DNA of 64,000 nucleotides from Robiginitalea biformata HTCC2501 (GTDB lineage Bacteria; Bacteroidota; Bacteroidia; Flavobacteriales; Flavobacteriaceae), in assembly GCF_000024125.1 (NCBI RefSeq), contig NC_013222.1, forward strand, positions 310,001 to 374,000, given 5' to 3'. Below, one piece after another: positions 27,295-60,776 of the stretch. Each line of letters opens with the position of its first letter. The first letter of the stretch is position 1. The notes under the pieces were generated by a model. That model saw only the letters and a list, made by a program, of their open reading frames with translations, was not told the origin of the DNA and did no database searches. Both the position numbers and the translations under genes were made by a program.

Positions 27295-27576
27295 ATGAAT
27301 CGAATCAACATAAAAAAATTAGGCTTTGCCATGGGGCTTACAGGAGCATTGGTATATCTGGGTTGTATAGTAGTAATGTTAACAGCCGGCCGTGAGGGAA
27401 CAATAGATTTCTTCAACAGTTTGCTGCACGGGTTGGACACTACAAGTATCATTAGAATGGATGTCCCCCTTTGGGAAGCGGCCATAGGCATTGTCCAAAC
27501 TTTTATCATAGGGTGGCTGATCGGAGCACTTATAGCGGCATTTTATAATGTACAGTTAAAAAACAGAAGAGTGTGA
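27295..27576 (+). CDS. DUF5676-like membrane protein
   Basis: 93 residues with two hydrophobic helices (about 10-32 and 60-85). It resembles the DUF5676 family of small membrane proteins seen in metal islands, but this assignment is from memory. Its stop overlaps the GTG start of the GAPDH gene by 4 bp (GTGA), so the metabolic cassette may be translated together with it. Confidence 0.75.
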   Translation: MNRINIKKLGFAMGLTGALVYLGCIVVMLTAGREGTIDFFNSLLHGLDTTSIIRMDVPLWEAAIGIVQTFIIGWLIGALIAAFYNVQLKNRRV

Positions 27577-28586
27577 AAAAAATAGCAGTAGTTGGATATG
27601 GAGTCATCGGAAAAAGAGTGGCCGATGCCGTTAATGTACAAGAGGATATGGACCTTTTCGGGGTCTGCGACATCATTAGCGATTGGCGCATACAGACCGC
27701 CTTGGAAAAAGGTTTTGCAGTATTTGCCGCAACCAAGGAAGCAAATGAAAAAATGCGATCGGAGGGAATATGCGTTGCAGGTTCTATGCAAGAGCTATTG
27801 GAACGGGTTGATCTGGTTGTGGATTGTACCCCCAAAAAGATTGCGGCTAAAAATGTTGAAACCTAGAGGGAAAAAGGAATCAAATTTATCCTTCAAGGAG
27901 GGGAAAAACATGAAACCACAGGCCATTCCTTTAGTGCAGAGAACAATTATGAATCGGCCGTAGGTTTAGATTCTACAAGAGTGGTTTCATGCAATACCAC
28001 ATCCATCTTAAGAACACTGACCACTCTAAAAAGAGCCGATTTGCTCAATTATGCAAGGGGTACTCTGTTAAGACGTGCCACTGACCCCTGGGAAAGCCAT
28101 TTGGGCGGCATTATGAATACGATGGTGCCCGAAAAGGAAATCCCGAGCCACCAAGGTCCGGATGCACAAAGTGTGGATCCCGATCTCGGTGTAATCACAT
28201 CGGCGGTAAAAGTACCCCAAACTTTGAGCCATATGCACTACTGGAACGTAAAGCTAAAGAAAAATGCATCCAAAGAGGAAGTACTAGCTGCCCTTAAAAC
28301 GTCGACCCGTATCAAATTGATACACTACGATCAAGGGCTGGTCTCGAACAACACCATTAAGGAAATGTATCTGGATATGGGACGGCCTTGGGGCGATATG
28401 TACGAAGTGGCCCTGTGGGAAGACATGCTCAAAGTCGTGGGCGACGAACTGTTCTATGCCTATGTGGTGGATAATCAGGCCATCGTAATTCCTGAGACCA
28501 TTGATGCTATACGGGCATTGACAGGTATCGAAAATGATGGTCAAAAATCCATCGTCAAAACCAATAAAAGTTTGGGAATTAATTAA
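27573..28586 (+). pseudogene. Type II (archaeal-type) glyceraldehyde-3-phosphate dehydrogenase with internal amber codon
   Basis: The reading frame starts at GTG 27573 (VKKIAVVGYGVIGKRVADAV, Rossmann fold) and is in frame to the stop at 28586 except for one TAG at 27864-27866 (codon 98), after AAKNVET and before REKGIKFILQGGEKHE. Homologues carry Tyr near this position, so a TAC/TAT to TAG change is plausible. The catalytic Cys is in SCNTTS at codon 140, with the conserved HYWNVKL and GRPWGDMYE segments further on. The rest shows no damage, so the mutation may be recent, suppressed, or a sequencing error. Type II GAPDH is rare in Bacteroidota and typical of archaea. Confidence 0.8.
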
Positions 28587-28594
28587 AAATAGAG

Positions 28595-29653
28595 ATGACA
28601 TTTGAAGAAATAAAGGAACATTTAGGGGACACGGCATCTTTCTACCTGGAACATGTAAGTAATAAGATTACCAAGGATGAATTGCAGTTACCAGAAAAAC
28701 ACGTTGTGGACAAGGTATTCGTCAACACTGATCGTAATACTCGGGTCCTCGGAAGCCTTTCACAACTTTATGGTCACGGAAATCTTGCTGGCACAGGATA
28801 TCTCAGCATTCTTCCTGTCGATCAGGGTATTGAACATAGCGCCGCTTTTTCCTTCTATAAAAATCCTGACTATTTTGATCCTGAGAACATCATAAAATTG
28901 GCTATCGAAGCAGGCTGCAACGGAGTGGCCTCGACTTTCGGGGGCTTGGCCCTTTACGCACGGAAATATGCGCATAAAGTTCCGTTTATCGTAAAAATAA
29001 ATCACAACGAGCTCCTGACCTATCCCACCAAATATGACCAAACCCTCTTCGGTACTGTGAAGGAAGCTTGGAATATGGGTGCCGTGGCAGTCGGCGCGAC
29101 CATTTATTTCGGTTCCGATGAAAGTAATCGGCAGTTGAAGGAAATCTCCGAGGCATTTGCGGAGGTGCACAGTCTTGGGATGGCCACCATTCTCTGGTGT
29201 TACACCCGAAACGAAGCTTTCGAAACCGATACAGAAGATTATCATTCATCGGCCGATTTGTCAGGGCAGGCCAATCATCTTGAGGTTACTATACAGGCGG
29301 ATATTATCAAGCAAAAGTTGCCAACTACCAATTTTGGATTCAAAAACATTGGATTCGGCAAATACGAAGATGCCATGTATGAAACCTTGACCACGGAACA
29401 TCCCATTGACCTATGTAGGTTACAAGTGGCAAATTGCTATATGGGAAAAATCGGGTTGATCAACTCGGGAGATGGCTCCAAGGGAGAATCCGACCTGACT
29501 GAAGCGATCATTACGGCTGTCGTCAACAAACGGGCCGGAGGCTCCGGTCTGATCTTAGGAAGAAAGGCTTTTCAGCGGCCGTTCAAAGAGGGGGTAGAAC
29601 TGTTACGTGGCGTACAGGGCGTTTATTTAGAGAAGAAAGTAACCATAGCATAA
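28595..29653 (+). CDS. Class I fructose-bisphosphate aldolase (FbaB/archaeal type)
   Basis: 352 residues, TIM barrel of the DhnA/FbaB family. Signatures include [37 protein letters not shown] and [13 protein letters not shown]. It would cleave or form fructose 1,6-bisphosphate through a Schiff-base lysine. It starts 8 bp after the GAPDH frame, so GAPDH and aldolase form an archaeal-type glycolytic/gluconeogenic pair. A class I enzyme needs no metal cofactor, a possible advantage under metal stress (inference). Confidence 0.9.
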
Positions 29654-29666
29654 TGGATAATCAAGA

Positions 29667-31031
29667 ATGTTCGATACGGAAATAAAATCACTGAAATCCC
29701 TTAACCACTACCTGCAAAAATTGGTGGAAGATAGGTTATGGCTAAAAGTCATCATTGCACTGTTCCTTGGGGTCGGTCTCGGACTGTTGTTAAGTCCCCA
29801 AAATGGTTGGATAACCAAAAGCACTGCCGATGTTCTTGGCAATTGGTTGGCCCTACCTGGCATGCTCTTTCTTAAATTGGTACAGATGATCATGATACCC
29901 TTGATCGTTGCCTCTATCATTACAGGTATAGCAAGTAATGACAAAGAGAATCTGAAAAAGCTAGGTGGTGGGGTGCTCTTATATTTTATTTCCACAACAA
30001 TTATTTCGGTAACTATAGGTACGATCCTTGCCTTAATCTTTCGCCCTGGCAAGTATCTACATCAACAAGCCGTTGCGGATCATGAAGAGGCTTTGACCAG
30101 TAATGCCGAAAGCACCGAGCTGTCATTCGGCTTGAACGATATCCCCACTGCTATAACAAATTTGTTGCCCGACAATCCCTTGGCATCCATGGTAAGCGGC
30201 GAAATGTTGAGTATTGTCATTTTTACTATTATAATAGGTGTTGCCGTATTGTCCCTTCCCGACGACTTGCTAAAACCTGTAAAATTATTATTGAGTGCCA
30301 TTCAGGAAATCTGTATGACCGTGGTCAAGTGGGCCATGTTACTGGTTCCCGTTGCCGTTTTCGGCTTGATGGCGCAACTGACTTCTAGCGTTGGTCTAAA
30401 TTCCCTTTCAGGTCTGGGCTTTTATGTGCTCGTCGTCTTGATAGGGCTATTGTTGTTGGTCATAATTTACCTGATAGGTGTAAGCCTTTTGGGCAAGGGA
30501 AATCCGTTACGGTTTTTACGTAAGATCAGGGATGTGCAACTGCTGGCCTTCTCGACCACAAGTTCCGCGGCGGTAATGCCACTCTCCCTCAAAACTGCGG
30601 AAGAAGAACTAAAGGTTGATCCTACAATCAGTAATTTCATAATCCCTATCGGAGCCACCGTAAATATGGACGGCACGGCGCTTTACCAGACCATAACCAC
30701 CCTCTTTATTGCCCAAGCATACGGACTGGAAATGGGCCTTTTGAATGTCATCGTGGTGGTGGTTACCATCGTTGCGGCGTCTATAGGGACACCTGCAATA
30801 CCCGGAGGGGGCGTTGTGATTTTAGCTTCCGTACTATCCGGTGCAGGCATACCGGCAGAAGGAATAATCATCATAATAGGGGTGGAACGGTTGCTTGGAA
30901 TGTTTCGGACGGCAGTAAACGTTACCGGCGATCTTACGGCCTGTATGGTATTCAATCGATTTTATGGAAATATGCCCATCACAGGCTCAGATAAAGTACT
31001 AAAAACACAAGAAGAGTGTTCCACTGTTTAA
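29667..31031 (+). CDS. Dicarboxylate/amino acid:cation symporter (DAACS)
   Basis: 454 residues with about eight membrane helices and two re-entrant loops. Diagnostic motifs are the serine-rich STTSSAAVMPLSLKTAEE, NMDGTALYQTITTLFIAQ, and GIPAEGIIIIIGVERLLGMFRT near the end. It likely imports C4-dicarboxylates or glutamate/aspartate with Na+ or H+. It follows the aldolase by 13 bp, providing carbon input next to the glycolytic genes. Confidence 0.92.
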   Translation: MFDTEIKSLKSLNHYLQKLVEDRLWLKVIIALFLGVGLGLLLSPQNGWITKSTADVLGNWLALPGMLFLKLVQMIMIPLIVASIITGIASNDKENLKKLGGGVLLYFISTTIISVTIGTILALIFRPGKYLHQQAVADHEEALTSNAESTELSFGLNDIPTAITNLLPDNPLASMVSGEMLSIVIFTIIIGVAVLSLPDDLLKPVKLLLSAIQEICMTVVKWAMLLVPVAVFGLMAQLTSSVGLNSLSGLGFYVLVVLIGLLLLVIIYLIGVSLLGKGNPLRFLRKIRDVQLLAFSTTSSAAVMPLSLKTAEEELKVDPTISNFIIPIGATVNMDGTALYQTITTLFIAQAYGLEMGLLNVIVVVVTIVAASIGTPAIPGGGVVILASVLSGAGIPAEGIIIIIGVERLLGMFRTAVNVTGDLTACMVFNRFYGNMPITGSDKVLKTQEECSTV

Positions 31032-31089
31032 AAACCAGAATATGAAAAGATCGACCGATGACGTGAACGTTAACAACCAAGATTGAACT

Positions 31090-31479
31090 ATGGACACAAA
31101 TATTAAACATGTTGGGGCATTTATCTCGGTATGCGATTCCCCTGGAATGAATGCAGCAATTTACCCAACCATCTTTACAAGCTTCTTCACCCGCTATGAA
31201 AACCTGAAGCAACTTGCTTGCTTTTGCGGGGCAGCCCCCTTTGAGTATACCTACGGGACCAGCCCTCAAAAGTGGGCCAAAACACACCATATGGAAAACC
31301 GCGTCTTAAAAAGGCAATTCCACATGTGTGCCCTCTCTGCAATCAATCACGACCCGGAATTAAGGGAATACTACCAACGAAAAGCAGCCGAGGGAAAGAA
31401 TAAAATGCTGGAGATAAATAATGTTCGGAATAAACTAATCCTGAGGAACTGTACCGTGATGAAGCGTCAAAAACCCTAG
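31090..31479 (+). mobile_element. IS110-family transposase remnant (C-terminal part)
   Basis: About 110 codons match the C-terminal transposase_20 region of IS110 elements: FTRYENLKQLACFCGAAPFE, then RVLKRQFHMCALSAINHDPEL and YYQRKAAEGKNKMLEINNVRNKL. The N-terminal DEDD catalytic part is missing, so it is not functional. Its borders are not marked by clear repeats. It lies between the symporter and the universal stress gene and may be the scar of an insertion that assembled the cassette. Confidence 0.85.
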
Positions 31480-31685
31480 GTTCGGGAAGCTGCGTTATGA
31501 TCAGAATTAGGTTTTGACTGATTCATGGAAATCCGGCTGACACAACATTGACAATTATTGCCGAAACTATCATACACAACTTAAATTGTTTCGAGAAGTG
31601 CAACGCTTTTTTAATGAAATGACAGGCAAAAAGGCGACAACGCATATCATAAAGATCAAACATATACTACCTAATAATAATAACA

Positions 31686-32516
31686 ATGAAAAATATACTA
31701 GTACCCACAGATTTCTCTGAAAACTGCACTAAAGCTGCGAAACTCGGAATAGACATGGCCAAACTTTTTGATGCCGAGATTCATTTTTTCCATTTGATAC
31801 AGACCCCTGTTGATTGGGTAAAGCTGGAGAAGGAAAAGGAAAAACGGCATCCTGAAACCTTGAAAAAAATCGGCAGTGCAAAATCCGCTTTACGCGAGCT
31901 GGAAAAGAAGGCAGAACAGGAACATTTGAAATGTCAAACCTTCCTTCAATATCAAGTAGGAACCAAGCATATTATAAAACATTCGGGGCATTTTGACCAT
32001 GATTTCATTATCACGGGCAGTAGCGGCACTAAGGGTGCTGTACGTGAATTGTTGGGTAGTTACGTGGAAGAGATCGTCAGAAAATCGGATGTTCCGGTAA
32101 TCGTGGTCAAGGAGGACGAGGTTGCTTTCCCTTTTAAAAATATCGTATTTGTTTCTGATTTTGAAGAGGATGTAAGTCAAGCATTTAAGCATGTTATTTC
32201 CATTGCAAAAAAATGCAATGCACATATCCATCTATTGCGCGTCAATACGAAAACGGATACCAATAGTATTCAAGCAGGACTAAAACCTATCCAAACATTT
32301 GTTGAAAAGTTTCCAGGCCTGAAACATTATTCCATGTTCGTCAATAACGAACCCTCTGTAGAGGTGGGAATCAATACCTTCTTAACGTATGAACCGGCGG
32401 ATTTAATTGCCATGTGTACGCACGGGAATACGGGTTTCTTAAACTTATTTTCCAAAAGTATCGCTGAGGGTGTAGCCAATCATTCCACACTTCCGGTAAT
32501 GACAATACGCATTTAG
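31686..32516 (+). CDS. Universal stress protein, two UspA domains
   Basis: 276 residues consisting of two tandem UspA-like domains (about 1-140 and 145-276). The first starts MKNILVPTDFSENCTKAAKL and ends with ITGSSGTKGAVRELLGSYVEEIVR...VPVIVVKE, retaining the ATP-binding GxxG-type loop. The second ends MCTHGNTGFLNLFSKSIAE. It is probably a cytosolic nucleotide-binding stress protein. The next gene starts 2 bp after it. Confidence 0.9.
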   Translation: MKNILVPTDFSENCTKAAKLGIDMAKLFDAEIHFFHLIQTPVDWVKLEKEKEKRHPETLKKIGSAKSALRELEKKAEQEHLKCQTFLQYQVGTKHIIKHSGHFDHDFIITGSSGTKGAVRELLGSYVEEIVRKSDVPVIVVKEDEVAFPFKNIVFVSDFEEDVSQAFKHVISIAKKCNAHIHLLRVNTKTDTNSIQAGLKPIQTFVEKFPGLKHYSMFVNNEPSVEVGINTFLTYEPADLIAMCTHGNTGFLNLFSKSIAEGVANHSTLPVMTIRI

Positions 32517-32518
32517 GA

Positions 32519-33370
32519 ATGGGAGTAATACAGGTTAAAAAATATTCGGGCGAAATGGAGGCATTTGATATGAATAAACTTGTCAACTCCCTAAGACGTT
32601 CTCAGGTCGATGAAAGTCTTGTACAGCAAATCGCCCATGAAGTAGAAGGAAATATTGAGGATGGAATGACCACAAAAAAAATCTATCAAATGGCCTTCAG
32701 GATGCTAAAAAGCAGGGCAAGGGTAAGTGCGTCGCGATATAAGCTAAAAAAGGCCTTAATGGAACTTGGGCCATCCGGTTACCCCTTTGAAAAATTTGTT
32801 GGCAAAGTATTGCAGTATGAAGGCTTTGAGGTAGAAGTAGGGGTACTCGTCAAAGGCGATTGTGTACAGCATGAAGTGGACGTGATTGCCCAAAAAGGGA
32901 ATAGGCACTATATGATAGAGTGTAAATATCACAGCGACCAAGGCCGGTTTTGCAATGTGAAAATCCCGCTCTACATCCAATCTAGATTTTTGGATGTTCA
33001 AAAGCAATGGGAAAAGCAAGAAGGTCACAAAAACAAATCACACCAAGGCGGTGTTTACACCAATACCCGATTTACAAGTGATGCCACACATTATGGAAAC
33101 TGTGTCGGGTTAATGCTGACCAGTTGGGATTATCCCAAAGGAAAAGCACTAAAGAATAGAATAGACACAGCTGGCCTGCATCCCTTAACCTCACTGACCA
33201 CGATTACCAAATCGGAGAAATCGAAATTGTTGGAACATGGAATTGTACTTTGTAGGGAAATAAAGGACAATCCCGATGTGTTGAAAAAAGTTGGGATTGA
33301 TGGGGCCAGACGAAAAAAGATTCTAGCCGATTCGCAAAGTCTATGCGAAACCCATCAACCAAACACTTGA
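32519..33370 (+). CDS. ATP-cone domain fused to Mrr-like restriction endonuclease
   Basis: 283 residues. The N-terminal ATP-cone (about 4-88) starts VIQVKKYSGEMEAFDMNKL, the type of nucleotide-sensing domain found in ribonucleotide reductases and NrdR. It is followed by a PD-(D/E)xK nuclease (about 95-210), with catalytic signatures VQHEVDVIAQKG and YMIECKYHS. A C-terminal tail of about 60 residues ends in a small helical segment (LKKVGIDGARRKKILADSQ). ATP-cone plus Mrr suggests nuclease activity controlled by ATP/dATP level; this is inference. It lies between the stress protein and the RNase. Confidence 0.85.
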   Translation: MGVIQVKKYSGEMEAFDMNKLVNSLRRSQVDESLVQQIAHEVEGNIEDGMTTKKIYQMAFRMLKSRARVSASRYKLKKALMELGPSGYPFEKFVGKVLQYEGFEVEVGVLVKGDCVQHEVDVIAQKGNRHYMIECKYHSDQGRFCNVKIPLYIQSRFLDVQKQWEKQEGHKNKSHQGGVYTNTRFTSDATHYGNCVGLMLTSWDYPKGKALKNRIDTAGLHPLTSLTTITKSEKSKLLEHGIVLCREIKDNPDVLKKVGIDGARRKKILADSQSLCETHQPNT

Positions 33371-33373
33371 ATT

Positions 33374-34750
33374 ATGACCGAAAGAACTATTAATATCCAT
33401 TTTTTAGGAGCGGCTGGTACTGTTACTGGTTCCAAATATCTTCTGGACACAGGGGACAGAAAAATACTTATCGATTGCGGTCTGTTTCAGGGGCTCAAAG
33501 AACTACGCTTAAAAAACTGGGAATATCCACCTGTAAACGTCACCGAAATTGATGCCGTATTGCTTACCCATGGCCATTTGGACCATACCGGCTATCTGCC
33601 AAGGTTGGTAAAGCAAGGTTTCAAAGGGCCTATTTATGGCACCTATCCCACTTTGGACATCGCCAAGATTATATTGAACGATAGTGCCAAAATACAGGAA
33701 CAAGAGGCCGAACGTGCCAATAAGGGAGGGTATTCAAAGCACAGTCCCGCAGAACCGCTGTACGATTTAAAAGATGTTGAAAAGACCATTCCGTATTTCA
33801 AGGGAATACCACTCAACCAGTGGCTTCCCATTTTAAAAAATGTAAAAGCAAGATTTCAGTATAACGGACATATTCTCGGAGCAACCTATATTGAATTGGA
33901 TGTGCAGGACAAACGATTTGTCTTTTCAGGGGATATTGGTAGAACAAACGATTTGCTCTTATATCCACCTGCTAAACCAAAAAGAGCCGACGTGCTGTTT
34001 ATGGAATCAACCTATGGCGGTAGGTTCCATCCCGAAGAGACGGAAGCGCTTCCCGAAATTGAAAAATTGGTCAACGAAACCGTTTCAAGGGGCGGTAGCC
34101 TTTTTATACCAAGTTTTTCGGTTGAACGCGCCCAATTGATGATGTTGATATTCTGGAGGCTATTAAAAGAAACCAAAATTCCGAAAGTCCCCATGATAAT
34201 GGACAGCCCAATGGGTGCCAATGTCTTGGAACTATTTCACAGAACACGTGACTGGCATAGGTTGGAAGATGACGAGTGTGACAAAATGTGCTCCCACTTT
34301 ACCGTTGTTAGCAGCTACCGTGAAACTATGGAACTGAGAAGTGATGACAAACCAAAAATTGTCATTGCCGGAAGCGGAATGCTCACAGGCGGCAGAATGT
34401 TGAACTATCTGGAAACCCAGGCACAAAACCCCGATAACACTTTACTCTTTGTTGGCTATCAAGCGGAAGGTACCCGTGGAAGAAAATTATTGGAAGGAGA
34501 AAAGGAAATAAAAGTGTATGGAAAGACTGTATCCTTCAAAATGCAAGTGGCCGAGATTGAAGGTCTTTCGGCCCATGCAGACCATGCCGAATTGTTGGAT
34601 TGGTTGAGTGATATAAAGATTCAGCCAGAAAAAATATTTATCGTTCATGGCGAAAGAGAAGGGGCCGAGGCCTTAAAACAGGGAATCAAGGAAATCTATG
34701 ACTGGGATAGTGAAGTTCCCCAACTCTATGGTATCGAAGAGTTAAAGTAG
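33374..34750 (+). CDS. Metallo-beta-lactamase/beta-CASP ribonuclease
   Basis: 458 residues. MBL motif HGHLDHTGYLPRL (about 65-77), later FSGDIGRTND, a beta-CASP domain (SFSVERAQLMMLIF) and the RNA-specificity C-terminus (GSGMLTGGRMLNYL, GLSAHADHAELLDWL, IVHGE). The family includes RNA-processing endo/exonucleases. It starts 3 bp after the ATP-cone nuclease. It is probably a zinc-dependent RNase of this stress cassette. Confidence 0.92.
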   Translation: MTERTINIHFLGAAGTVTGSKYLLDTGDRKILIDCGLFQGLKELRLKNWEYPPVNVTEIDAVLLTHGHLDHTGYLPRLVKQGFKGPIYGTYPTLDIAKIILNDSAKIQEQEAERANKGGYSKHSPAEPLYDLKDVEKTIPYFKGIPLNQWLPILKNVKARFQYNGHILGATYIELDVQDKRFVFSGDIGRTNDLLLYPPAKPKRADVLFMESTYGGRFHPEETEALPEIEKLVNETVSRGGSLFIPSFSVERAQLMMLIFWRLLKETKIPKVPMIMDSPMGANVLELFHRTRDWHRLEDDECDKMCSHFTVVSSYRETMELRSDDKPKIVIAGSGMLTGGRMLNYLETQAQNPDNTLLFVGYQAEGTRGRKLLEGEKEIKVYGKTVSFKMQVAEIEGLSAHADHAELLDWLSDIKIQPEKIFIVHGEREGAEALKQGIKEIYDWDSEVPQLYGIEELK

Positions 34751-34773
34751 GTAAGAAATTACGAAAGAATAAC

Positions 34774-36282
34774 ATGGAAATGGAAGAAAAATCAAACATC
34801 CTCAAATATAAATCGCTAGGTATTTACACGCAAAATGAAAACGTTGTGTATATGCGAGAAGATTGTCATGTCTGTATTTCAGAAGGGTTTGAGGCATTGA
34901 CCCGTATAAGGGTATCGAACATGAGCTCCTCGATAATTGCAAGTCTGCATATCATTACTTCAGAAGTTCTTAGGCAGGGCGAAATAGGGCTGTCACAAAT
35001 AGCAGCAAAAAAACTCAAAGTATGGGACGGCGAAACGTTATACGTGTCCCATTTGGAACCCATAGAATCATTGAGCTTTGTAAGGGCAAAAATTTATAAT
35101 CAAAAGCTCGGTTATACAGCTTACAAGGACATCATCACGGATATCATCGAAGGCGATTATTCCAATATCCACTTATCGGCATTTATTACGGCCTGTGCAG
35201 GCGACCGAATGGATATCGATGAAATCTCGGACCTTACCAAGGCGATGATATCCTCGGGAAAACAACTGGATTGGAAGAAGGAAATAGTGGTTGACAAACA
35301 CTGTATCGGGGGATTACCGGGCAATAGAACTACGCCTATCGTTGTCGCAATTGCCGCCGCTTACGGGCTGACCATGCCCAAAACTTCCTCACGGGCCATT
35401 ACTTCTCCAGCGGGTACGGCCGATACTATGGAAGTATTGACGAATGTTACCCTTTCTGGCGAAGAAATCAAACGTGTCGTGGAACAGGAAGGCGGCTGTT
35501 TGGTATGGGGCGGTACGGCACAATTAAGCCCAGCGGACGATATTCTCATTAAGGTGGAAAAAGCCTTGGATATTGATAGCGAAGGTCAACTGATTGCCTC
35601 GGTATTGTCTAAAAAAGCGGCTGCAGGTGCTACCCATGTGGTAATCGACATTCCTGTTGGGAAAACGGCCAAGGTGCGCAGTGAAGAGGCCGTGCAAAAA
35701 CTCAAGGAACATATGGAAGCCGTAGGCAATGCAGTAGGGCTTAAAATAAAGGTGGTCATTACCGATGGCAGCCAGCCCGTGGGCAGGGGTATCGGCCCTA
35801 ATTTAGAGGCGGTTGATGTGCTAAGTGTTTTGCAGAATAAGAGGGATGCGCCACAAGACCTAAAAGAACGAGGATTATTGTTGGCGGGGCACCTCTTGGA
35901 GCTATCGGAAAAAGTGGAAACAGGAAAAGGCCTTGATACAGCGAAAGAATTGTTGGAAAGCGGAAAGGCTTATCAAAAATTCGAGGCCATCTGCAAGGCC
36001 CAAGGAAGATTTTCAAAAACCTATGTTGCCCCTTACCAATTTGAGATGCATGCACCTAAACGTGGTAAGGTCAAAAAAATAAACAATCGAAAGATTGCAA
36101 AACTCGCAAAATTGTCGGGAGCACCACAATCCAAATTGGCGGGCATTTCGATGAACGTCCGGTTGGGCGATGAGATAGAAAAGGGGGGATTGCTCTATAT
36201 ACTCCACGCAGAAACAAATGGGGAACTGAACTATGCCTTGGAATATTATGAGAATCATGATGATATAATTACAATCCAATAA
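34774..36282 (+). CDS. AMP phosphorylase/thymidine phosphorylase-family enzyme
   Basis: 502 residues, longer than bacterial DeoA (about 440) because of an N-terminal beta domain of about 85 residues, as in archaeal AMP phosphorylase. Core motifs: KHCIGGLPGNRTTPIVVAI (phosphate loop), SRAITSPAGTADTMEVL and GGCLVWGGTAQLSPADD. Known archaeal homologues phosphorolyse NMPs to the free base plus ribose 1,5-bisphosphate. Located 23 bp after the RNase and 9 bp before a PRPP synthetase, which supports nucleotide-sugar turnover rather than thymidine use. Substrate is inferred. Confidence 0.9.
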   Translation: MEMEEKSNILKYKSLGIYTQNENVVYMREDCHVCISEGFEALTRIRVSNMSSSIIASLHIITSEVLRQGEIGLSQIAAKKLKVWDGETLYVSHLEPIESLSFVRAKIYNQKLGYTAYKDIITDIIEGDYSNIHLSAFITACAGDRMDIDEISDLTKAMISSGKQLDWKKEIVVDKHCIGGLPGNRTTPIVVAIAAAYGLTMPKTSSRAITSPAGTADTMEVLTNVTLSGEEIKRVVEQEGGCLVWGGTAQLSPADDILIKVEKALDIDSEGQLIASVLSKKAAAGATHVVIDIPVGKTAKVRSEEAVQKLKEHMEAVGNAVGLKIKVVITDGSQPVGRGIGPNLEAVDVLSVLQNKRDAPQDLKERGLLLAGHLLELSEKVETGKGLDTAKELLESGKAYQKFEAICKAQGRFSKTYVAPYQFEMHAPKRGKVKKINNRKIAKLAKLSGAPQSKLAGISMNVRLGDEIEKGGLLYILHAETNGELNYALEYYENHDDIITIQ

Positions 36283-36291
36283 AAAGAACTT

Positions 36292-37185
36292 ATGCAAACG
36301 ATATTATTTAGCCTTCCCGGCAACCAAGAATTAACGGAACTCCTAGCAAAGAAAATGAATGCCGAAATCGGGGAATGTGCGATACGAAAATTTCCTGATG
36401 GCGAGTCCTATACTCGCATTCTGTCCGATGTAAAAGGAAAATGTGTGGTATTGGTCTGTACCCTTCACGAACCTGATGTAAAGTTGTTGCCTCTTTACTT
36501 TTTGAGCCATACGGCCAAATCATTGGGGGCAATGTGTACCTGTTTGGTGGCACCCTATTTGGCTTATATGCGCCAAGACAAGGTTTTTAACGATGGTGAG
36601 GGGGTTTCCTCCACCTATTTTGGAAAATTGATTTCGGGCTTTGCCGATAGTATCACGACCGTCGATCCCCATTTGCATCGCATAAGTTCTTTAGGCGAGG
36701 TATATGATATTCCGAATAGGGTTATCCATGCCGCGGATGCCATCTCCAAATACATCAATGAAAATATACACAATCCGGTATTAATAGGCCCTGATTCCGA
36801 AAGCGAGCAATGGGTTTCCGATGTAGCCAAAAAAGCCGAAGTTCCATTTACCGTATTGCAAAAGGTGCGCCATGGTGATCGTGATGTTGAAGTTTCCGTA
36901 CCCAATGTAGCGAAATATAAAGTATCCACTCCAGTCCTGGTGGATGATATCATATCTACGGCTCAGACAATGATAGAAACCACGGAACATTTGAAGAATG
37001 CCGGAATGAAACCGGCGATATGCATCGGAATCCATGCTGTTTTTTCCGGAAACGCCTATCAAGACCTTTGGGATGCCCATGTGAAAGATATCATTACTTG
37101 CAACACCATACCACACCAATCGAACGGTATTGACCTAAGTGATGTCATAGCCCAGGAAGTAACTGAACTGATGTACCATACATGA
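36292..37185 (+). CDS. Island ribose-phosphate pyrophosphokinase (PRPP synthetase)
   Basis: 297 residues with the PRPP synthetase fold: FPDGESYTRI, PYLAYMRQDKVFNDGEGVS (ATP loop region), TVDPHLHR and VLVDDIISTAQTM (PRPP/ribose-5-P binding). It makes PRPP and AMP from ribose 5-phosphate and ATP, or works in reverse. It differs clearly from the housekeeping copy at 59835-60776 (diverged N-terminus and shorter). Coupled to the AMP phosphorylase gene upstream (9 bp). Confidence 0.9.
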   Translation: MQTILFSLPGNQELTELLAKKMNAEIGECAIRKFPDGESYTRILSDVKGKCVVLVCTLHEPDVKLLPLYFLSHTAKSLGAMCTCLVAPYLAYMRQDKVFNDGEGVSSTYFGKLISGFADSITTVDPHLHRISSLGEVYDIPNRVIHAADAISKYINENIHNPVLIGPDSESEQWVSDVAKKAEVPFTVLQKVRHGDRDVEVSVPNVAKYKVSTPVLVDDIISTAQTMIETTEHLKNAGMKPAICIGIHAVFSGNAYQDLWDAHVKDIITCNTIPHQSNGIDLSDVIAQEVTELMYHT

Positions 37186-37832
37186 AAAGTACCATTTACA
37201 TTTTGACCGTTTTATTGTCATCTTTTTTAGTACAGGCACAAGAAGAAATGCTTATAGGCCAACTCGCCGACAGATTGGTGGTGCGGGAAAATTATGATGA
37301 AAATGGAGTTTTTCGCAATAAGCAAACCTTTCAGGCGGGAGGGTTAATAGAAACGGATGGATATTATGAAATTGAGGTAGAAACCGAATTCTTTGATGAA
37401 AACGGGAATTCAACGGATAAATACTCCACCACCTATCGCTGTCGGCCAGAAGCATCGAGTGTTATGGTAATGGCATTTCCATTTTCAAATCGAAAATCGA
37501 AAGAAACCGAAATAAACACCAGTTCCAAAAATTTCAAAGATTTATACAACATGGACAGTTTGAAAAATGTTGAACTTGAAATTAGTTTTGATTCGGGATT
37601 ACTGGATTTTTTCGGCTCAAAAAGTAAAATCTACATTTTTGACCGAAAGCTTAATCCTAAAACAAAAGACATTCAAATCAATTCAAAACTTACGGTGAAA
37701 GCCTATTCGTGGGGCATACGCATAAAGGAACTTGAATATTCAGTTCTTGAAAAACTATCGAAAAAAGGGCTGTTGTCCTATCAAAAATTTGTAGAAAACG
37801 ACGGAAGCTATTTTACGATAATCTATAAATAA
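37182..37832 (+). CDS. Secreted protein of unknown function
   Basis: 216 residues with a signal peptide (about 1-19, ending VQAQEE). The mature part is rich in beta-strands and acidic residues; no family recognised. It overlaps the preceding PRPP synthetase gene by 4 bp and precedes a small protein gene by 11 bp, so it belongs to the cassette. Confidence 0.7.
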   Translation: MKSTIYILTVLLSSFLVQAQEEMLIGQLADRLVVRENYDENGVFRNKQTFQAGGLIETDGYYEIEVETEFFDENGNSTDKYSTTYRCRPEASSVMVMAFPFSNRKSKETEINTSSKNFKDLYNMDSLKNVELEISFDSGLLDFFGSKSKIYIFDRKLNPKTKDIQINSKLTVKAYSWGIRIKELEYSVLEKLSKKGLLSYQKFVENDGSYFTIIYK

Positions 37833-37843
37833 TAGCAAAGAAA

Positions 37844-38137
37844 ATGAAGAGTTACGATACACTTTCAGAGGCGATAAACGCACTTCAAAATAGGGGATAT
37901 ACCTATAACTTTAATCTAAATCCCCATTGTTTGGAATGTGCCGCCCTAAAATTGGAAATACATCCCGAAAATTTTAAGGTGGATGAAATGCACCGCTTTG
38001 AAGGAATGAGCAGTACCGATGACAACAGCATTCTGTATGCAATTTCATCCAAAGATGGAATTAAGGGCACCCTAGTCGATGCCTATGGGGTATATGCACA
38101 GAACATTTCCGAAGAAATGCGAAAAAAACTACGATAA
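37844..38137 (+). CDS. Small conserved protein annotated in relatives as PRPP-synthetase-like
   Basis: 97 residues, cytosolic. It carries a CLEC pair (HCLECAALKLEIHPENF) and ends FGVYA-type sequence (VDAYGVYAQNISEEMRKKL). Similar Bacteroidota proteins are labelled phosphoribosylpyrophosphate synthetase, though they are far too short for that enzyme. The real role is unknown. It sits 11 bp downstream of the secreted protein gene. Confidence 0.7.
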   Translation: MKSYDTLSEAINALQNRGYTYNFNLNPHCLECAALKLEIHPENFKVDEMHRFEGMSSTDDNSILYAISSKDGIKGTLVDAYGVYAQNISEEMRKKLR

Positions 38138-38153
38138 CACTTCAATAAAGAAC

Positions 38154-40310
38154 ATGGAAAATCACGAGCATCACAAACACGATCATAGTAAAAGAAGTAA
38201 GGGTTCCGCAAAGGAAAAGGCAGTGGATAAAAAGACCGAATTGAAAGATTCACTGGCCGAAAAAACCGAGCATGGCCATACCAAAACCATGGATAAGGAA
38301 CACAATATGAGCCATGATGAACATTCCGACCATAATCCGAAACATGGGCAGATGGGTCATGACCACCATAAGATGATGATCGCTGACTTTAGAAAACGTT
38401 TTTGGGTAACCTTGGTACTGACCATACCCATTCTATTTCTGTCGCCGATGATCCAAGAATTTTTCGGCTATGATTTTTTGTTGCCGGGCAACCCGTACAT
38501 TCTATTCGCAATATCGTCCATAGTTTATTTCTATGGTGGCTGGCCTTTTTTAAAGGGATTCTGGTCTGAGGTGAAAAAAGGTGCCCCGGGAATGATGACC
38601 CTGATTGCCATGGCCATAAGTGTGGCCTATTTTTATAGTTCGGCTACCGTTTTTGGCCTTGAAGGTGTTGATTTCTTCTGGGAACTGGCTACCCTTATAG
38701 CCATTATGCTTGTAGGCCACTGGATAGAGATGAAGAGTGTTCTGGGAGCCTCAAAAGCCCTGCAATTATTGGTAAGTATGATGCCCGCCGAAGCACACCG
38801 CGTAAATGGCGAAACAATAGAAGATATAGCACTGGAAGATTTATTGAAAGGTGATTTGATCCTGATAAAACCAGGAGAGAAAGTTCCTGCGGACGGTATT
38901 GTCGTGGAAGGATCGAGTTACTTGAACGAATCAATGCTTACGGGGGAATCTAAACCTGTAAAAAAAGAACTAAACGACAAAGTGATAGGTGGTTCGGTAA
39001 ACGGAAACAGTAGTTTAAAGGTCAAGGTAGAACATACTGGTAAGGATAGTTATCTCAATAAAGTGATAACCATGGTCGAGGAAGCCCAAAAAACAAAATC
39101 CAAAATGCAGAACCTTTCAGATAGGGCTGCCAAATGGCTTACCTATATTGCATTGGCCATTGGTTTTGGCACATTGGCTGTTTGGCTTGCATTGGGATTC
39201 CCCTTTGTATATGCCTTGGAACGAATGGTCACGGTTATGGTCATTGCCTGTCCCCACGCATTGGGTCTTGCCATTCCATTGGTAGTAGCCATTTCCACAG
39301 CAGTTTCGGCACAGAACGGGTTGTTGATCCGCAACAGGACGGCATTTGAAGAATCCCGAAAAATATCCGCTCTGCTTTTCGACAAGACCGGAACGCTGAC
39401 CAAAGGGGATTTTGGTGTTACCCGTATAGAGTCGGTAGACAATAACAATTCCTCGGCCGAAGTATTACGGCTCGCCAGTGCTTTGGAACAAAGTTCCGAA
39501 CACCCTATTGCAGTTGGCATCATCAAAAAAATCAAGGAGGATAAGGTAATCATCCCAAAACCTAAAAATTTTAATTCTATAACCGGAAAAGGTGTTGAAG
39601 CCACTGTTGAGAACAAAAAGATAAAAGTGGTAAGCCCTGGTTATTTAAGGGATGAAAAAATAGATATTCCAAAAGATGCCTATAGTGATGCTGCTGAAAC
39701 AGTTGTATTTGTTTTAATCGATGGGAAGTTGGCAGGATACATTGCACTTGCCGATGAGATCAGACCGGAATCCGCCGAAGCGATCAGGATTTTCAAAAAG
39801 AACAATATTAAAGTGCTCATGGCAACAGGAGACAATGAAAAGACAGCAAAGGCGGTGAGCGAAAAATTAGGACTTGACGGGTATTATGCCGAAGTTTTGC
39901 CACACCAAAAGGTTGAAATCGTAAAGCAATTACAGGAAAAGGAGGAATTTGTAGCAATGACCGGCGATGGGGTTAACGATGCCCCTGCACTGGCACAGGC
40001 CAATGTTGGCATTGCAGTCGGTTCAGGTACCGATGTAGCCGCAGAGACAGCAGATATTATTTTAGTAAACAGCAATCCACAAGACATCGCTAACCTGATT
40101 TTGTTTGGGAAGGCCACCTATAACAAGATGATCCAGAACCTGATATGGGCTACCGGTTATAATGTTGTCGCAATACCCCTTGCCGCAGGAGTCCTATACG
40201 CTTCGGGATTTGTCCTTGGTCCGGCCGTAGGAGCCGTATTTATGAGCTTGTCAACCATCATTGTCGCCATAAACGCCCAATTACTAAAAAGGAAAATTGC
40301 GAAGAAATAG
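38154..40310 (+). CDS. copB: CopB-type copper-translocating P-type ATPase
   Basis: The start is the ATG at 38154, which opens a long His-rich N-terminus (MENHEHHKHDHSKRSK...HDEHSDHNPKHGQMGHDHHK). The P1B-type ATPase core has TGES (actuator), CPH (VIACPHALGLAIPL, sixth helix), DKTGTLT (phosphorylation) and GDGVNDAPALAQANVG. CPH plus a His-rich tail is the CopB (P1B-3) signature, exporting Cu(I) or Cu(II)/Ag(I) from the cytoplasm. About 718 residues. The next gene begins directly after its stop. Confidence 0.92.
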   Translation: MENHEHHKHDHSKRSKGSAKEKAVDKKTELKDSLAEKTEHGHTKTMDKEHNMSHDEHSDHNPKHGQMGHDHHKMMIADFRKRFWVTLVLTIPILFLSPMIQEFFGYDFLLPGNPYILFAISSIVYFYGGWPFLKGFWSEVKKGAPGMMTLIAMAISVAYFYSSATVFGLEGVDFFWELATLIAIMLVGHWIEMKSVLGASKALQLLVSMMPAEAHRVNGETIEDIALEDLLKGDLILIKPGEKVPADGIVVEGSSYLNESMLTGESKPVKKELNDKVIGGSVNGNSSLKVKVEHTGKDSYLNKVITMVEEAQKTKSKMQNLSDRAAKWLTYIALAIGFGTLAVWLALGFPFVYALERMVTVMVIACPHALGLAIPLVVAISTAVSAQNGLLIRNRTAFEESRKISALLFDKTGTLTKGDFGVTRIESVDNNNSSAEVLRLASALEQSSEHPIAVGIIKKIKEDKVIIPKPKNFNSITGKGVEATVENKKIKVVSPGYLRDEKIDIPKDAYSDAAETVVFVLIDGKLAGYIALADEIRPESAEAIRIFKKNNIKVLMATGDNEKTAKAVSEKLGLDGYYAEVLPHQKVEIVKQLQEKEEFVAMTGDGVNDAPALAQANVGIAVGSGTDVAAETADIILVNSNPQDIANLILFGKATYNKMIQNLIWATGYNVVAIPLAAGVLYASGFVLGPAVGAVFMSLSTIIVAINAQLLKRKIAKK

Positions 40311-41525
40311 ATGAACAAGCCACAAAAACTTGGCAGGATATTTTTGATTCTGCTAAGTCTATTTGTCGTTATGTTAGGGTATGGGATACTACTGCCCATT
40401 CTCCCCTACTATACGGAAAGATTGGCATTAAAAGATAATTTAGATGCCGACCGGATTAACTTCCATATCGGCATGTTGACCAGTATTTATCCGTTGTTCC
40501 AACTCATATTCGTAATTGTATGGGGAAGACTTTCCGATAAATATGGTCGTAAGCCCATAATTCTAGTAGGCCTAATCGGATTTATAACAATGAACTTGCT
40601 GACCGGGCTGGCTACTTCGCTTACAATGCTCTATTCCGCCCGCATTTTTGGGGGAATTTTCACTTCATCCGTCATTCCTGTAAGCAATGCCTATCTAAGT
40701 GACATAACCTCTCAAAAGCGAAGAACCAAAACAATGGCATGGTCCGGAGTGGCCATTAGTTCTGGTGTTATTTTTGGCCCTGTTTTGGGCGGCCTCTTAT
40801 CGCAGACCAATGTGCACTTGGAACTATCTTTTGGGATATTTCATTTTAACCGATTTTCGATTCCATTTCTTTTTGCCGCCATATTAGGTTTGATCATATT
40901 GTTCGTAATTATAAAATGGTTGAAGAACACGGCAATTGTGACCAGGATTAGAGAAAAAACGATAAAATTTGATTTTACCTTAAGTAACTATTTTATCATC
41001 CTACTGCTGCTATCCTTTGTAATGCAATTTGTTGTGACCCTCTTTGAAACCGTCTTTTCAATCTATGGCAAGGATGAATTGGCGTTCAATAGTAGTCAAG
41101 TGGGTATAGGCTTTATGCTTTGCGGTTCTGTGATGGCGGTATTACAGCCTGTTTTTGCTACTTATGGGGAAAAGATAATAACCTCAAAACAGCAAATAAC
41201 GTTAGGCTTATTGATAACAGGGGTATCGCTCTTAATGTTCCCTTTTTTACAAAGTGAGCTATCTGTATATGGTATGATAATACTATTTGCCAGTGGCGGT
41301 GCCATGGTAACCCCGAATCTGCTTTCGGCAGTCTCTTTGTTATCCAAGGAAGATACGGGAAGAAATATTTCCATTCAAAGCTCCTCCAACAGTATCGGCC
41401 AGATTTTAGGGCCTGTGTTGGGAACATGGTTGCTGGCAGGTGGCTTTTATTATCCTTTTATAATTGCAGGATTGATCATTTTGATGGCGATAGGATTGGT
41501 TTACTATCTACAAACAAAAAATTAG
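40311..41525 (+). CDS. MFS exporter (TetA-like)
   Basis: 404 residues with about 12 membrane helices. The N-terminus MNKPQKLGRIFLILLSLFVV and the motif GRLSDKYGRKPIILVG between helices 2 and 3 mark the DHA1/TetA-like drug-exporter group. It starts at the base after the ATPase stop codon. Substrate unknown; a metal-conjugate or drug role cannot be decided. Confidence 0.87.
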   Translation: MNKPQKLGRIFLILLSLFVVMLGYGILLPILPYYTERLALKDNLDADRINFHIGMLTSIYPLFQLIFVIVWGRLSDKYGRKPIILVGLIGFITMNLLTGLATSLTMLYSARIFGGIFTSSVIPVSNAYLSDITSQKRRTKTMAWSGVAISSGVIFGPVLGGLLSQTNVHLELSFGIFHFNRFSIPFLFAAILGLIILFVIIKWLKNTAIVTRIREKTIKFDFTLSNYFIILLLLSFVMQFVVTLFETVFSIYGKDELAFNSSQVGIGFMLCGSVMAVLQPVFATYGEKIITSKQQITLGLLITGVSLLMFPFLQSELSVYGMIILFASGGAMVTPNLLSAVSLLSKEDTGRNISIQSSSNSIGQILGPVLGTWLLAGGFYYPFIIAGLIILMAIGLVYYLQTKN

Positions 41526-57230: not shown

Positions 57231-57557
57231 TTAAGTTTTAAGTAAAAAAACAATTGTTATTCCCCAGCCTAATAGATTTAAAAAACTCCAGGCCCAAAAC
57301 AGTTTTACCTGCCAACCCGGTATCGTTTGGGCTTTTTCAATTTTGTTATTTATCCCCAGCACTATTTTTTCTAGCTCAAAGTGACGCTTGCGCTGGATTT
57401 CATGGTACTCCCAGAGTATCTTATTCACCAAAGAAATGTCAGGCTCCAGCTTGTAGTCTTTCAAGCTTGCCTGAAGGGTTTCCAGTTTGTTCACGCTCTT
57501 TTCAAAACTGTGAATCTCCTCAGTGAGTAATTCCGCTATTTCATCCAGTTTTGCCAT
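57231..57557 (-). CDS. Mobilization-associated membrane protein (DUF6730-like)
   Basis: 108 residues: a coiled-coil region (about 1-80, IHSFEKSVNKLETLQASLKD) and a single C-terminal membrane helix (VKLFWAWSFLNLLGWGITIVFLL). Small proteins of this kind follow relaxase genes in Bacteroidota mobilizable elements; I believe they are named DUF6730. It lies 5 bp after the relaxase gene. Confidence 0.75.
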   Translation of the reverse strand: MAKLDEIAELLTEEIHSFEKSVNKLETLQASLKDYKLEPDISLVNKILWEYHEIQRKRHFELEKIVLGINNKIEKAQTIPGWQVKLFWAWSFLNLLGWGITIVFLLKT

Positions 57558-57562
57558 GTCCT

Positions 57563-59602: not shown

Positions 59603-59608
59603 AGTCTG

Positions 59609-59834: not shown

Positions 59835-60776
59835 ATGTCCTATACGGTACCGGAACCCAAGTTGTTTGCCTGCACGCAGAGCCAGGCCCTGGGTAAAGAA
59901 ATTGCAAAGGCCTATGGGGCAGACCTGGGCAAGGTTATTTTTTCCCGCTACAGCGACGGCGAATTCCAGCCTTCCTTCGAGGAATCCATCCGGGGGGCGC
60001 GGATTTTCATCATCGGCTCCACCCATCCGGGTCCGGAACACCTCATGGAGATGCTCCTGATGCTCGACGCTGCCAAACGCGCCAGCGCCCGGCATATTAC
60101 CGCGGTGATGCCCTACTTTGGCTGGGCCCGCCAGGACCGCAAGGACAAACCCCGCGTACCCATTGCCGCCAAACTGGTGGCCAAGATGCTGGAAACGGCC
60201 GGGGCCACGCGGATTATTACCATGGACCTGCACGCCGACCAGATCCAGGGCTTTTTCGAAAAGCCGGTAGACCACCTGTTTGCCTCCACCCTCTTCCTTC
60301 CGTATCTGCGGAAGCTGAAACTGGACAACCTGACGATTGCTTCTCCGGACATGGGGGGTTCCAAAAGGGCCTACGCCTACTCCAAGGCGCTGGAAAGCGA
60401 CGTGGTGATCTGCTACAAGCAGCGGGCCAAGGCGAATGTGATCTCGCATATGGAACTGATCGGGGATGTGGCCGACAAAAACGTCGTCCTTGTGGACGAT
60501 ATGGTGGATACGGCCGGCACGCTTACAAAAGCGGCCGACCTGATGATGGAGCGCGGGGCAAAAAGCGTCCGGGCCATTACCACGCACGGGTTGCTGTCCG
60601 GTAGCGCGTACGAGCGGATCGAAAATTCACGGCTGGAAGAACTGATTATCACGGATTCCATCCCGCCGCGCCAGGAAAGCCCCAAGGTAAAGGTGCTCAG
60701 TTGTGCGGAACTCTTTGCGGATGTGATGCACCGGGTGCACCACAATACCTCCATCGCATCCAAATTTTTAATGTAG
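59835..60776 (+). CDS. prs: Housekeeping ribose-phosphate pyrophosphokinase
   Basis: 313 residues, standard bacterial PRPP synthetase: FSRYSDGEFQPSFEESIRG, MPYFGWARQDRKDKPRVP, TMDLHADQIQGFF, and VLVDDMVDTAGTLTKAADL. It makes PRPP from ribose 5-phosphate and ATP. It is the first GC-rich gene after the tRNA, so it belongs to the chromosome core. Followed 21 bp later by L25. Confidence 0.95.
   Translation: MSYTVPEPKLFACTQSQALGKEIAKAYGADLGKVIFSRYSDGEFQPSFEESIRGARIFIIGSTHPGPEHLMEMLLMLDAAKRASARHITAVMPYFGWARQDRKDKPRVPIAAKLVAKMLETAGATRIITMDLHADQIQGFFEKPVDHLFASTLFLPYLRKLKLDNLTIASPDMGGSKRAYAYSKALESDVVICYKQRAKANVISHMELIGDVADKNVVLVDDMVDTAGTLTKAADLMMERGAKSVRAITTHGLLSGSAYERIENSRLEELIITDSIPPRQESPKVKVLSCAELFADVMHRVHHNTSIASKFLM

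Follow-up and report, generated by a model that had tools for sequence, protein, structure and literature searches.

A mobile archaeal-type nucleotide phosphorylase cassette with a paired PRPP synthetase in Robiginitalea biformata: a candidate for nucleotide recycling at low energy

To our knowledge, few fates of ribose 1,5-bisphosphate (R15P) have been described in bacteria. Among the closest described counterparts of the locus reported here is an archaeal one, namely the nucleoside-monophosphate (NMP/AMP) phosphorylase TK0352 (solved relatives 4ga4-4ga6) with the pentose bisphosphate pathway, in which R15P isomerase and RuBisCO form the outlet. Parts of PMC9700705 give AMP, CMP and UMP as substrates of the T. 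kodakarensis enzyme and describe two other ways of handling R15P. The non-carboxylating pentose bisphosphate pathway of haloarchaea does so without RuBisCO, starting from guanosine and using a ribose-1-phosphate kinase and R15P isomerase, whereas PhnN converts R15P to PRPP. In Bradyrhizobium diazoefficiens, published tables contain a predicted operon, bll3117-bll3116-bll3115, whose genes are named as a phosphorylase, a PRPP synthetase (PRS) and a metallo-beta-lactamase (MBL) protein; the likeness to our locus lies in these names, the operon has no ATP-cone gene, and the sections of the published text seen assign it no function.

The locus lies in a window of 64,000 nucleotides, the whole stretch of DNA analysed, from R. 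biformata HTCC2501 (Table 1). An earlier sequence-only reading of this DNA had placed the genes in one plus-strand run, and this order is confirmed; the operon continues past the 97-aa gene with no real gap, through the P-type ATPase and the MFS transporter to 41525. The genes are separated by 8 bp (GAPDH-aldolase), 13 bp (aldolase-symporter), 2 bp (universal stress protein-nuclease), 3 bp (nuclease-beta-CASP), 23 bp (beta-CASP-phosphorylase), 9 bp (phosphorylase-PRS) and 11 bp (216-aa-97-aa), and PRS overlaps the 216-aa gene by 4 bp. The IS110 scar between the two halves encodes a 129-aa remnant of the C-terminal part. The type II GAPDH named as first gene of the run is present but broken: an in-frame TAG splits it into ORFs 27573-27866 and 27981-28586 of one frame, the second scoring 252 bits on NF003251 (cut-off 185), and the gene is therefore probably a pseudogene. 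In Aequorivita antarctica (locus L047) a homologue upstream of the cassette is uninterrupted, with 337 aa. The P-type ATPase ORF opens at 38079 and its likely start was picked by eye; its metal type was judged by the His-rich N-terminus and by relatives, and secretion of the 216-aa protein by eye from the N-terminus alone.

Table 1. Features of the R. biformata locus, in positions of the window
Feature	Position	Strand	Basis or remark
DUF5676 two-TM protein	27295..27576	+	Pfam PF18926 E=1.5e-23; 4-bp overlap with GAPDH start
Type II GAPDH, probably pseudogene	27573..28586	+	In-frame TAG at 27864-27866
Class I fructose-bisphosphate aldolase	28595..29653	+	NF006707 619 bits (cut-off 327)
Sodium/dicarboxylate (amino acid) symporter	29667..31031	+	PF00375 E=3.7e-119
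IS110-family transposase remnant, C-terminal part	31090..31479	+	PF02371 E=4.8e-10; NF033542 positions 243-340 of 343
Two-domain universal stress protein	31686..32516	+	PF00582, 2 stretches
ATP-cone fused to PD-(D/E)XK nuclease, AF1548 type	32519..33370	+	PF03477, PF04471
Beta-CASP metallo-beta-lactamase RNase	33374..34750	+	PF10996, PF07521, PF00753
Nucleoside-monophosphate (AMP) phosphorylase family enzyme	34774..36282	+	NF003338, TIGR02645 above cut-off
Second, divergent PRPP synthetase, D-x-E-S loop	36292..37185	+	NF005537 389 bits (cut-off 322)
216-aa protein, apparent signal peptide	37182..37832	+	Pfam: nothing above cut-off
97-aa protein, conserved C-x-x-C	37844..38137	+	Pfam, NCBIfam, PADLOC: no match
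Heavy-metal (copper-type) P-type ATPase	38154..40310	+	PF00122 E=1e-54
MFS transporter	40311..41525	+	PF07690 E=8e-58
Usual PRPP synthetase, outside cassette	59835..60776	+	Alignment; comparison copy

Conservation was surveyed in 80 named loci, 395 sampled genomes of the phylum, 52 carrier genomes and 14 plasmid loci. Co-occurrence of phosphorylase, PRS, beta-CASP RNase and ATP-cone nuclease is not confined to this strain. PRS lies near the phosphorylase in 71 of the 80 named loci (directly downstream in 66) and is annotated near it in all 14 plasmid loci examined; of the 395 genomes, the 3 that have an intact phosphorylase are also the 3 with a cassette-type PRS (E<=1e-60). The gene order is more than chance, since other genera and phyla have the conserved block as well. 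The cassette is often plasmid-borne, and 115 plasmid records were found. The beta-CASP gene is near the phosphorylase in 50 loci, directly upstream in 39, and missing nearby from the other 30 (18 with >20 kb covered), so RNA cutting is not obligatory; PRS is missing from 9 loci, 6 of them with >20 kb covered. Distance matrices of the phosphorylase correlate with those of PRS (r=0.78, 67 loci; permuted maximum 0.11) and of the beta-CASP RNase (r=0.89, 44 loci; permuted maximum 0.14), an agreement also expected from co-transfer and kinship.

The ATP-cone nuclease is encoded directly upstream of the beta-CASP gene in 44 of 80 beta-CASP places of the phylum sample, and in 44 of the 46 best places. 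This pair occurs in 41 of the 395 genomes, stands alone in many genomes and has universal stress proteins as recurrent neighbours; at the named loci such a protein is found in 8 of 80, on the same strand. Because both pairs also occur apart, the cassette is two joined modules (nuclease/beta-CASP and phosphorylase/PRS) rather than the one undescribed system originally supposed. Its novelty holds in that our literature search found no paper treating the phosphorylase/PRS operon as a pathway, and falls short in that the same-named three-gene operon stands in the Bradyrhizobium tables. A literature search likewise found no description of the nuclease/beta-CASP pair, a second conserved unit.

The reading we favour, to which we give about even chances, is that of a mobile low-energy nucleotide-recycling cassette of two modules. 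When the energy charge falls, through low oxygen or metal-poisoned respiration, the ATP-cone would relieve the nuclease. The RNase would cut RNA, general RNases would take the nucleotides down to NMP, and the phosphorylase would convert NMP and phosphate to free base and R15P; by draining AMP it would also pull adenylate kinase towards ATP. Mostly R15P would not be sent to RuBisCO. Instead, the paired PRS-like enzyme would pass the sugar to PRPP, for nucleotide rebuilding, or to pentose phosphate, from which phosphoketolase and acetate kinase, where present, would make ATP. Gene identities, intact catalytic motifs and conserved pairing are established by the sequences; what the enzymes act on, the formation and fate of R15P, gating by ATP and what sets the system off in R. 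biformata are inferred. Energy genes lie near the cassette in 23 of 80 loci and phosphoketolase-type genes in 10; no phosphoketolase was found in the R. biformata genome, nor in 37 other carriers of the 52. Taken together, this suggests a candidate route, not described before, by which bacteria short of energy could recycle RNA.

It seems unlikely, although this explanation survives best among the alternatives, that the cassette is a passenger on metal islands, conferring some metal tolerance or simply carried along with its nucleotide chemistry incidental. Copper-type genes (CopA, CusA, DUF2933) are near 37 of the 80 loci, a P-type ATPase is part of the R. biformata run, and the plasmid records fit such carriage; but the covered stretch of the other 43 loci has no such gene, and 38 of these 43 keep phosphorylase and PRS together. 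The cassette often rides on copper islands, and the metal link is one of location. Metal stress as the trigger, as first proposed, finds no further backing, and the expression data found concern low oxygen. According to parts of PMC6515984 and PMC9104804, protein and transcript of the like-named Bradyrhizobium genes bll3117-bll3116-bll3115 are raised at 0.5% oxygen, as is phosphoketolase, and bll3115 and bll3117 are lower in a fixK2 mutant; in the portions of PMC6515984 seen, only the lenient list includes the three genes bll3117-bll3115, and it marks them neither as FixK2 targets nor as bacteroid-raised. FNR/FixK boxes showed no enrichment upstream of the cassette, with exact boxes in 1 of 71 loci (1.1% of random windows) and boxes with at most one mismatch in 10 of 71 (15.5% of random windows). 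Among 10 annotated gaps, 2 contained a one-mismatch box where about 1.4 sites would be expected, and no exact box was found within the R. biformata window. A low-energy recycling cassette may account both for nucleotide genes in copper islands and for their rise at low oxygen.

Ordinary pyrimidine nucleoside salvage, with a thymidine or uridine phosphorylase as annotated and PRS feeding base salvage, is quite improbable. Databases do label the bacterial copies thymidine phosphorylase, and the fold family is shared. However, the cassette enzyme is far under the cut-offs of the thymidine phosphorylase models TIGR02643 (143.2 bits, cut-off 570.7) and NF004490 (191 bits, cut-off 269), and exceeds those of NF003338 (690.6 bits, cut-off 434) and TIGR02645 (603.8 bits, cut-off 434.6); with the AMP phosphorylase equivalog TIGR03327 it reaches 490.6 bits, below the cut-off of 535. 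It matches PDB 4ga5 (E=4e-97), of the archaeal AMP-phosphorylase type, which we take to be a T. kodakarensis-type enzyme. Both enzymes have the stretches GGxPGN[K/R]T and KTSSRAITSxAGTAD, which two aligned pyrimidine phosphorylases lack and which we suppose to set substrate choice; GGLPGNRTT is present in 74 and KTSSRAITSxAGTAD in 75 of the 80 loci. Pyrimidine phosphorylases align only from residue ~95-130 on, whereas the first 95 residues are conserved within the cassette family. The AMP-phosphorylase-like identity given by the sequence-only reading is thereby upheld, and the sequence suggests an archaeal-type NMP phosphorylase family with NMPs as putative substrates.

Equally doubtful is a role in defence or dormancy, in which ATP-cone nuclease and RNase would form a nucleotide-gated abortive or growth-arrest system. 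The nuclease domain is weakly like CARF-PDDEXK effectors (E=1e-5), the beta-CASP protein is related to Cas14, and the pair can stand alone; but PADLOC gave no match for 8 of 9 cassette proteins scanned, the beta-CASP RNase scores 406.6 bits on the type VII CRISPR Cas14 model NF045584 (cut-off 800), and the neighbours include the universal stress proteins and energy genes mentioned above. This RNase has MBL, beta-CASP and RMMBL domains, with H66, H68, D70, H71, H166, D187 and H425 invariant in 10 of 10 sequences, and its best PDB match is RNase TTHA0252 (2dkf, E=2.8e-73). It shares fold and metal residues with TTHA0252, aCPSF1 and Cas14, but differs from these in its ATP-cone nuclease partner, and from aCPSF1 also in lacking the first 170 model positions. 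The nuclease matches AF1548 (PDB 1y88, E=5e-47) in its nuclease and C-terminal parts; the solved chain of 199 residues aligns only after the ATP-cone, whereas the cassette protein is an ATP-cone fusion. Residues E119, D121, E134 and K136 are invariant in 14 of 14, and the nuclease could act on DNA instead of RNA.

Neither R15P isomerase (TIGR00511) nor RuBisCO was found in the R. biformata genome, and therefore a different outlet is needed, as had been argued before. The archaeal outlet is mostly absent from the carriers as well, since none of the 52 has an isomerase match above cut-off (13 have weaker matches) and 5 have RuBisCO; in place of these, unlike in the TK0352 pathway, a PRPP synthetase is paired with the phosphorylase. 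The missing isomerase also sets R. biformata apart from the haloarchaeal route. PhnN, which would give the same product as proposed for the phosphorylase/PRS pair, passes its cut-off in 7 of the 52 carriers and was not found in R. biformata. The usual partner, PRS, is most likely the acceptor of R15P or the link, and this tight partner gene, spread by plasmids over many genera, offers a specific candidate to fill the missing step.

The cassette PRS is a second prs gene of R. biformata, 21% identical in alignment to the usual one. It satisfies the family model and has the PRPP loop and the K-x-R loop; K191, R193, D218 and D219 are invariant across 12 aligned PRPP synthetase rows. In 70 of 70 readable copies (71 loci, one masked) a loop reads D-x-E-S rather than the D-x-G-G or D-x-G-A of the housekeeping copy and three aligned solved PRPP synthetases, which we take to be a functional loop. 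The preprint PMC13252144, in the parts seen, describes PRPP synthetase classes II and IV with a TTMER/STMER motif in the RF loop replacing R96; the cassette protein lacks this motif and has MRQD there instead. A bolder proposal, which we regard as possible rather than probable, is a RuBisCO-free bacterial NMP shunt: an enzyme retuned by D-x-E-S would take R15P itself, making PRPP or trading the 1-phosphate with an adenine nucleotide, while the ATP-sensing nuclease/RNase pair would open the nucleotide supply as ATP falls. If true, the cassette would amount to a mobile programme that lets a cell live on its own RNA.

We know of no use of R15P by type II GAPDH or aldolase. The route of the sequence-only reading, in which metal stress leads RNA-derived R15P into glycolysis and these two serve as outlet, is very improbable: both stand with the cassette in R. 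biformata, L047, L049, L054 and L073, but such an outlet could be no more than a local addition because GAPDH is broken in R. biformata and aldolase is near the cassette in 4 of 80 loci (GAPDH II in 12). Of the small downstream genes, the 216-aa gene is found in 12 of 80 loci, on the same strand in 12 of 12, and the 97-aa gene in 8 of 80; C29 and C32 of the 97-aa protein are invariant in 10 of 10 aligned sequences.

The sequence-only reading had described a run of closely spaced genes, and assignment of the families with Pfam and NCBIfam bore out its order: all the named genes are encoded on the plus strand, where neighbours either overlap slightly or lie 2 to 23 bp apart. The genome, of 3.53 Mb, consists of one contig. 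The run contains these genes but does not end with them, as genes for a P-type ATPase and for an MFS transporter come next, and the type II GAPDH gene is present but not intact, being interrupted by an in-frame TAG codon. Since the usual prs gene is also located in the window (21% identity), the cassette PRPP synthetase is an extra copy. Mobilization genes lie close to the tRNA-Leu and the usual prs gene, and the metal region resembles a mobilizable element that has become integrated; a tRNA-Leu end repeat marking an island boundary was not found, there being no exact direct repeat of at least 14 bases in the window.

Positions of features in the window and in related loci
Feature	Position	Strand
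In-frame TAG in type II GAPDH gene	window 27864-27866	+
ATP-cone/AF1548-type nuclease	window 32519-33370	+
beta-CASP RNase	window 33374-34750	+
97-aa protein	window 37844-38137	+
End of run (P-type ATPase, MFS transporter)	window, up to 41525	
Relaxase, NikA-like mobilization protein, excisionase-like HTH gene	window 57231-59127	-
tRNA-Leu	window 59608-59690	-
Usual prs gene	window 59835-60776	
Decayed phosphorylase copy (L008)	G002:C1:2309042-2309941	
Small P-loop ATPase-like gene, G084 island	L142:4073-4621	
Small P-loop ATPase-like gene, G107	L143:7610-8161	

The genes had been taken for a single system; they do occur together, but not as one unit, because the nuclease pair also stands apart from the phosphorylase. 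Among 395 genomes sampled from the phylum, the ATP-cone nuclease, whose activity would be gated by ATP, is found in 72 (E<=1e-10) and a cassette-like beta-CASP RNase in 77 (E<=1e-90). The nuclease gene lies directly upstream on the same strand at 44 of 80 beta-CASP places, in 41 genomes; the same 44 are obtained from the 46 best places (at least 453 bits, a limit set after the list was seen). Such a beta-CASP partner is missing at 34 of 78 nuclease places. The stand-alone conserved pair is represented by the two window genes and by loci L141 and L145-L183, of which L141 is a second pair in the R. biformata genome itself, with a universal stress protein (USP). The phosphorylase adjoins three of the 44 pairs. 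Flanks were read for 40 pairs, leaving out the three phosphorylase-bearing cassettes and an island in genome G084, so that the zero count of phosphorylases among the 40 follows from the selection; a USP gene is near 15 of them by clustering and 14 by direct match. The G084 island (L142) carries an aldolase, USP, nuclease, beta-CASP RNase, the secreted protein, the 97-aa protein and CopA, and neither phosphorylase nor PRPP synthetase was found in it. As the nuclease pairs mostly lack the phosphorylase and this island lacks the second module, the cassette is a nuclease pair joined to a phosphorylase/PRPP synthetase pair.

Judged by eye, a small P-loop ATPase-like gene occupies the phosphorylase/PRPP synthetase place in the G084 island, and another adjoins the ATP-cone nuclease in G107.

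A scan of genome contigs gave at least 583 phosphorylase relatives, of which the best 80 were examined as named loci; being the best, they lean to close relatives, and 17 comprise less than 15 kb of sequence each. In these best 80 of at least 583, the expected neighbours of the phosphorylase recur: a PRPP synthetase in 71 loci (directly downstream in 66), a beta-CASP gene in 50 (directly upstream in 39) and the ATP-cone nuclease in 19, with the secreted protein in 12, and the nearest carriers are mostly Flavobacteriaceae, for example Arenibacter. Fused phosphorylase-PRPP synthetase genes were found in none of the 80. The beta-CASP gene was not found in 30 loci and the PRPP synthetase in nine; since 18 and six of these, respectively, have more than 20 kb of sequence, the missing genes are mostly not a short-contig effect. 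In the 395-genome sample a close phosphorylase occurs in four genomes, one of them (G002) with a partial gene containing two stops, and a cassette-type PRPP synthetase (E<=1e-60) occurs in three, the same three that have an intact phosphorylase (chance about 1e-7, kinship ignored). The decayed G002 copy is accompanied by no cassette-type PRPP synthetase in that genome at E<=1e-60.

Between-locus distances are concordant between the cassette genes, and the cassette crosses phyla: the gammaproteobacterium Marinicella pacifica has a phosphorylase of 76% identity and shares the gene order that begins with the ATP-cone nuclease and ends with the P-type ATPase, but lacks the USP and 97-aa genes. The phosphorylase is also present (E<=1e-60) in 115 plasmid records, whose organism names begin with 44 different words. 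In 14 annotated regions, hand-picked among 60 rows listed for these records, a PRPP synthetase is near in all 14, an MBL protein in 11 and an ATP-cone protein in two, the latter being the only records with this protein in a plasmid-wide search. Phage carriage can be dismissed: of 20 matching phage records, one (13.5 kb, unannotated) has a homologue of 54% over 98% of the query, and the other 19 are 28-34% identical.

The closest solved relative of the cassette phosphorylase is 4ga5 (E=4e-97), named putative thymidine phosphorylase in the structure record, which we take to be the AMP phosphorylase of T. kodakarensis. Both share the stretches GG-PGN-T and KTSSRAITS-AGTAD, which differ in two aligned pyrimidine nucleoside phosphorylases. 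The protein passes TIGR02645 and NF003338 but, with 491 bits, stays below the 535 required by the AMP_phos equivalog model; the R. biformata genome holds no second match to it. AMP, CMP and UMP are substrates of the archaeal enzyme (PMC9700705); for the cassette enzyme we infer a specificity for nucleoside monophosphates.

Both the PRPP loop and the K-x-R loop are conserved in the cassette PRPP synthetase. The D-x-G-G/A loop of PRPP synthetases holds pyrophosphate. At this site D-x-G-G or D-x-G-A stands in the housekeeping enzyme and in three aligned enzymes of known structure, and the cassette copies have D-x-E-S in 70 of 71 loci from the best 80 of at least 583, the remaining one being masked. 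Motifs of PRPP synthetase classes II and IV, as given in a preprint (PMC13252144), were not found in the cassette copy, which may belong to one of the other sporadic bacterial classes described there; the word phosphorylase was not found in the preprint's main text. The parts of the cassette are known at family level and the operon occurs in published tables. Term searches of open-licence papers found neither the phosphorylase/PRPP synthetase pairing as a pathway nor the altered loop or the ATP-cone/beta-CASP pair.

Phosphorolysis would yield ribose 1,5-bisphosphate (R15P), for which an acceptor is presumed. As had been noted from the window, the archaeal outlet is absent: the R. biformata genome has neither R15P isomerase nor RuBisCO, and phosphoketolase and PhnN (a weak match of 46 bits) were not found in it either. 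Among 52 carrier genomes (49 hand-picked from the 80 loci, plus three genomes), none has an R15P isomerase match that exceeds the cut-off, 13 showing weaker matches, and RuBisCO is present in five. As general outlets, phosphoketolase fails with 14 of the 52 carriers, R. biformata not among them, and PhnN with just seven above cut-off. The PRPP synthetase is the one partner nearly always present; that this PRPP synthetase-like enzyme takes R15P itself we consider unlikely. Near the cassette, in the best 80 of at least 583 loci, phosphoketolase-type genes occur in 10, type II GAPDH in 12 and acetate kinase in five.

Some of these phosphoketolase-type neighbours are just 23-25% identical to phosphoketolase. 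On three plasmids (L042, L127 and L128), genes of about 795 aa between the PRPP synthetase and MBL genes are annotated as xylulose 5-phosphate 3-epimerase; because genes placed alike in named loci (e.g. L108) show that 23-25% identity, this name may be wrong.

The predicted operon bll3117-bll3116-bll3115 of Bradyrhizobium diazoefficiens (thymidine phosphorylase family, PRPP synthetase, MBL hydrolase) is likened to the cassette by gene names, not sequences. Oxygen at 0.5% raises these genes (log2 protein 2.1, 4.4 and 2.9; transcript changes 5.1, 7.7 and 15.4); they stand on a lenient list that includes phosphoketolase bll2518, are not raised in bacteroids and bear no FixK2-target mark (PMC6515984). 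A later fixK2 mutant listing has bll3115 and bll3117 lowered, with a putative box upstream of this predicted operon, and also phosphoketolase-acetate kinase and oleate hydratase (PMC9104804). On plasmids, genes of these kinds are cassette neighbours too: phosphoketolase together with acetate kinase, acetate kinase, and oleate hydratase. An MBL protein of the low-oxygen locus in Burkholderia cenocepacia, which may belong to the cassette family, rises in infection (PMC6127331). Low oxygen may be a trigger, but an FNR/FixK box is not enriched before the cassettes, either across the 71 of the 80 loci scanned or across 10 annotated gaps, which counts against low-oxygen control as a general rule. 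Copper-type genes lie near the cassette in 37 of the best 80 of at least 583 loci; metal islands are therefore a common vehicle.

PADLOC gave nothing beyond a weak similarity of the nuclease to defence systems. The secreted protein (216 aa) and the 97-aa protein have no family match. The latter, seen in eight of the best 80 of at least 583 cassette loci and also in the G084 island, has an invariant C-x-x-C, and this small protein may have a redox or metal role.
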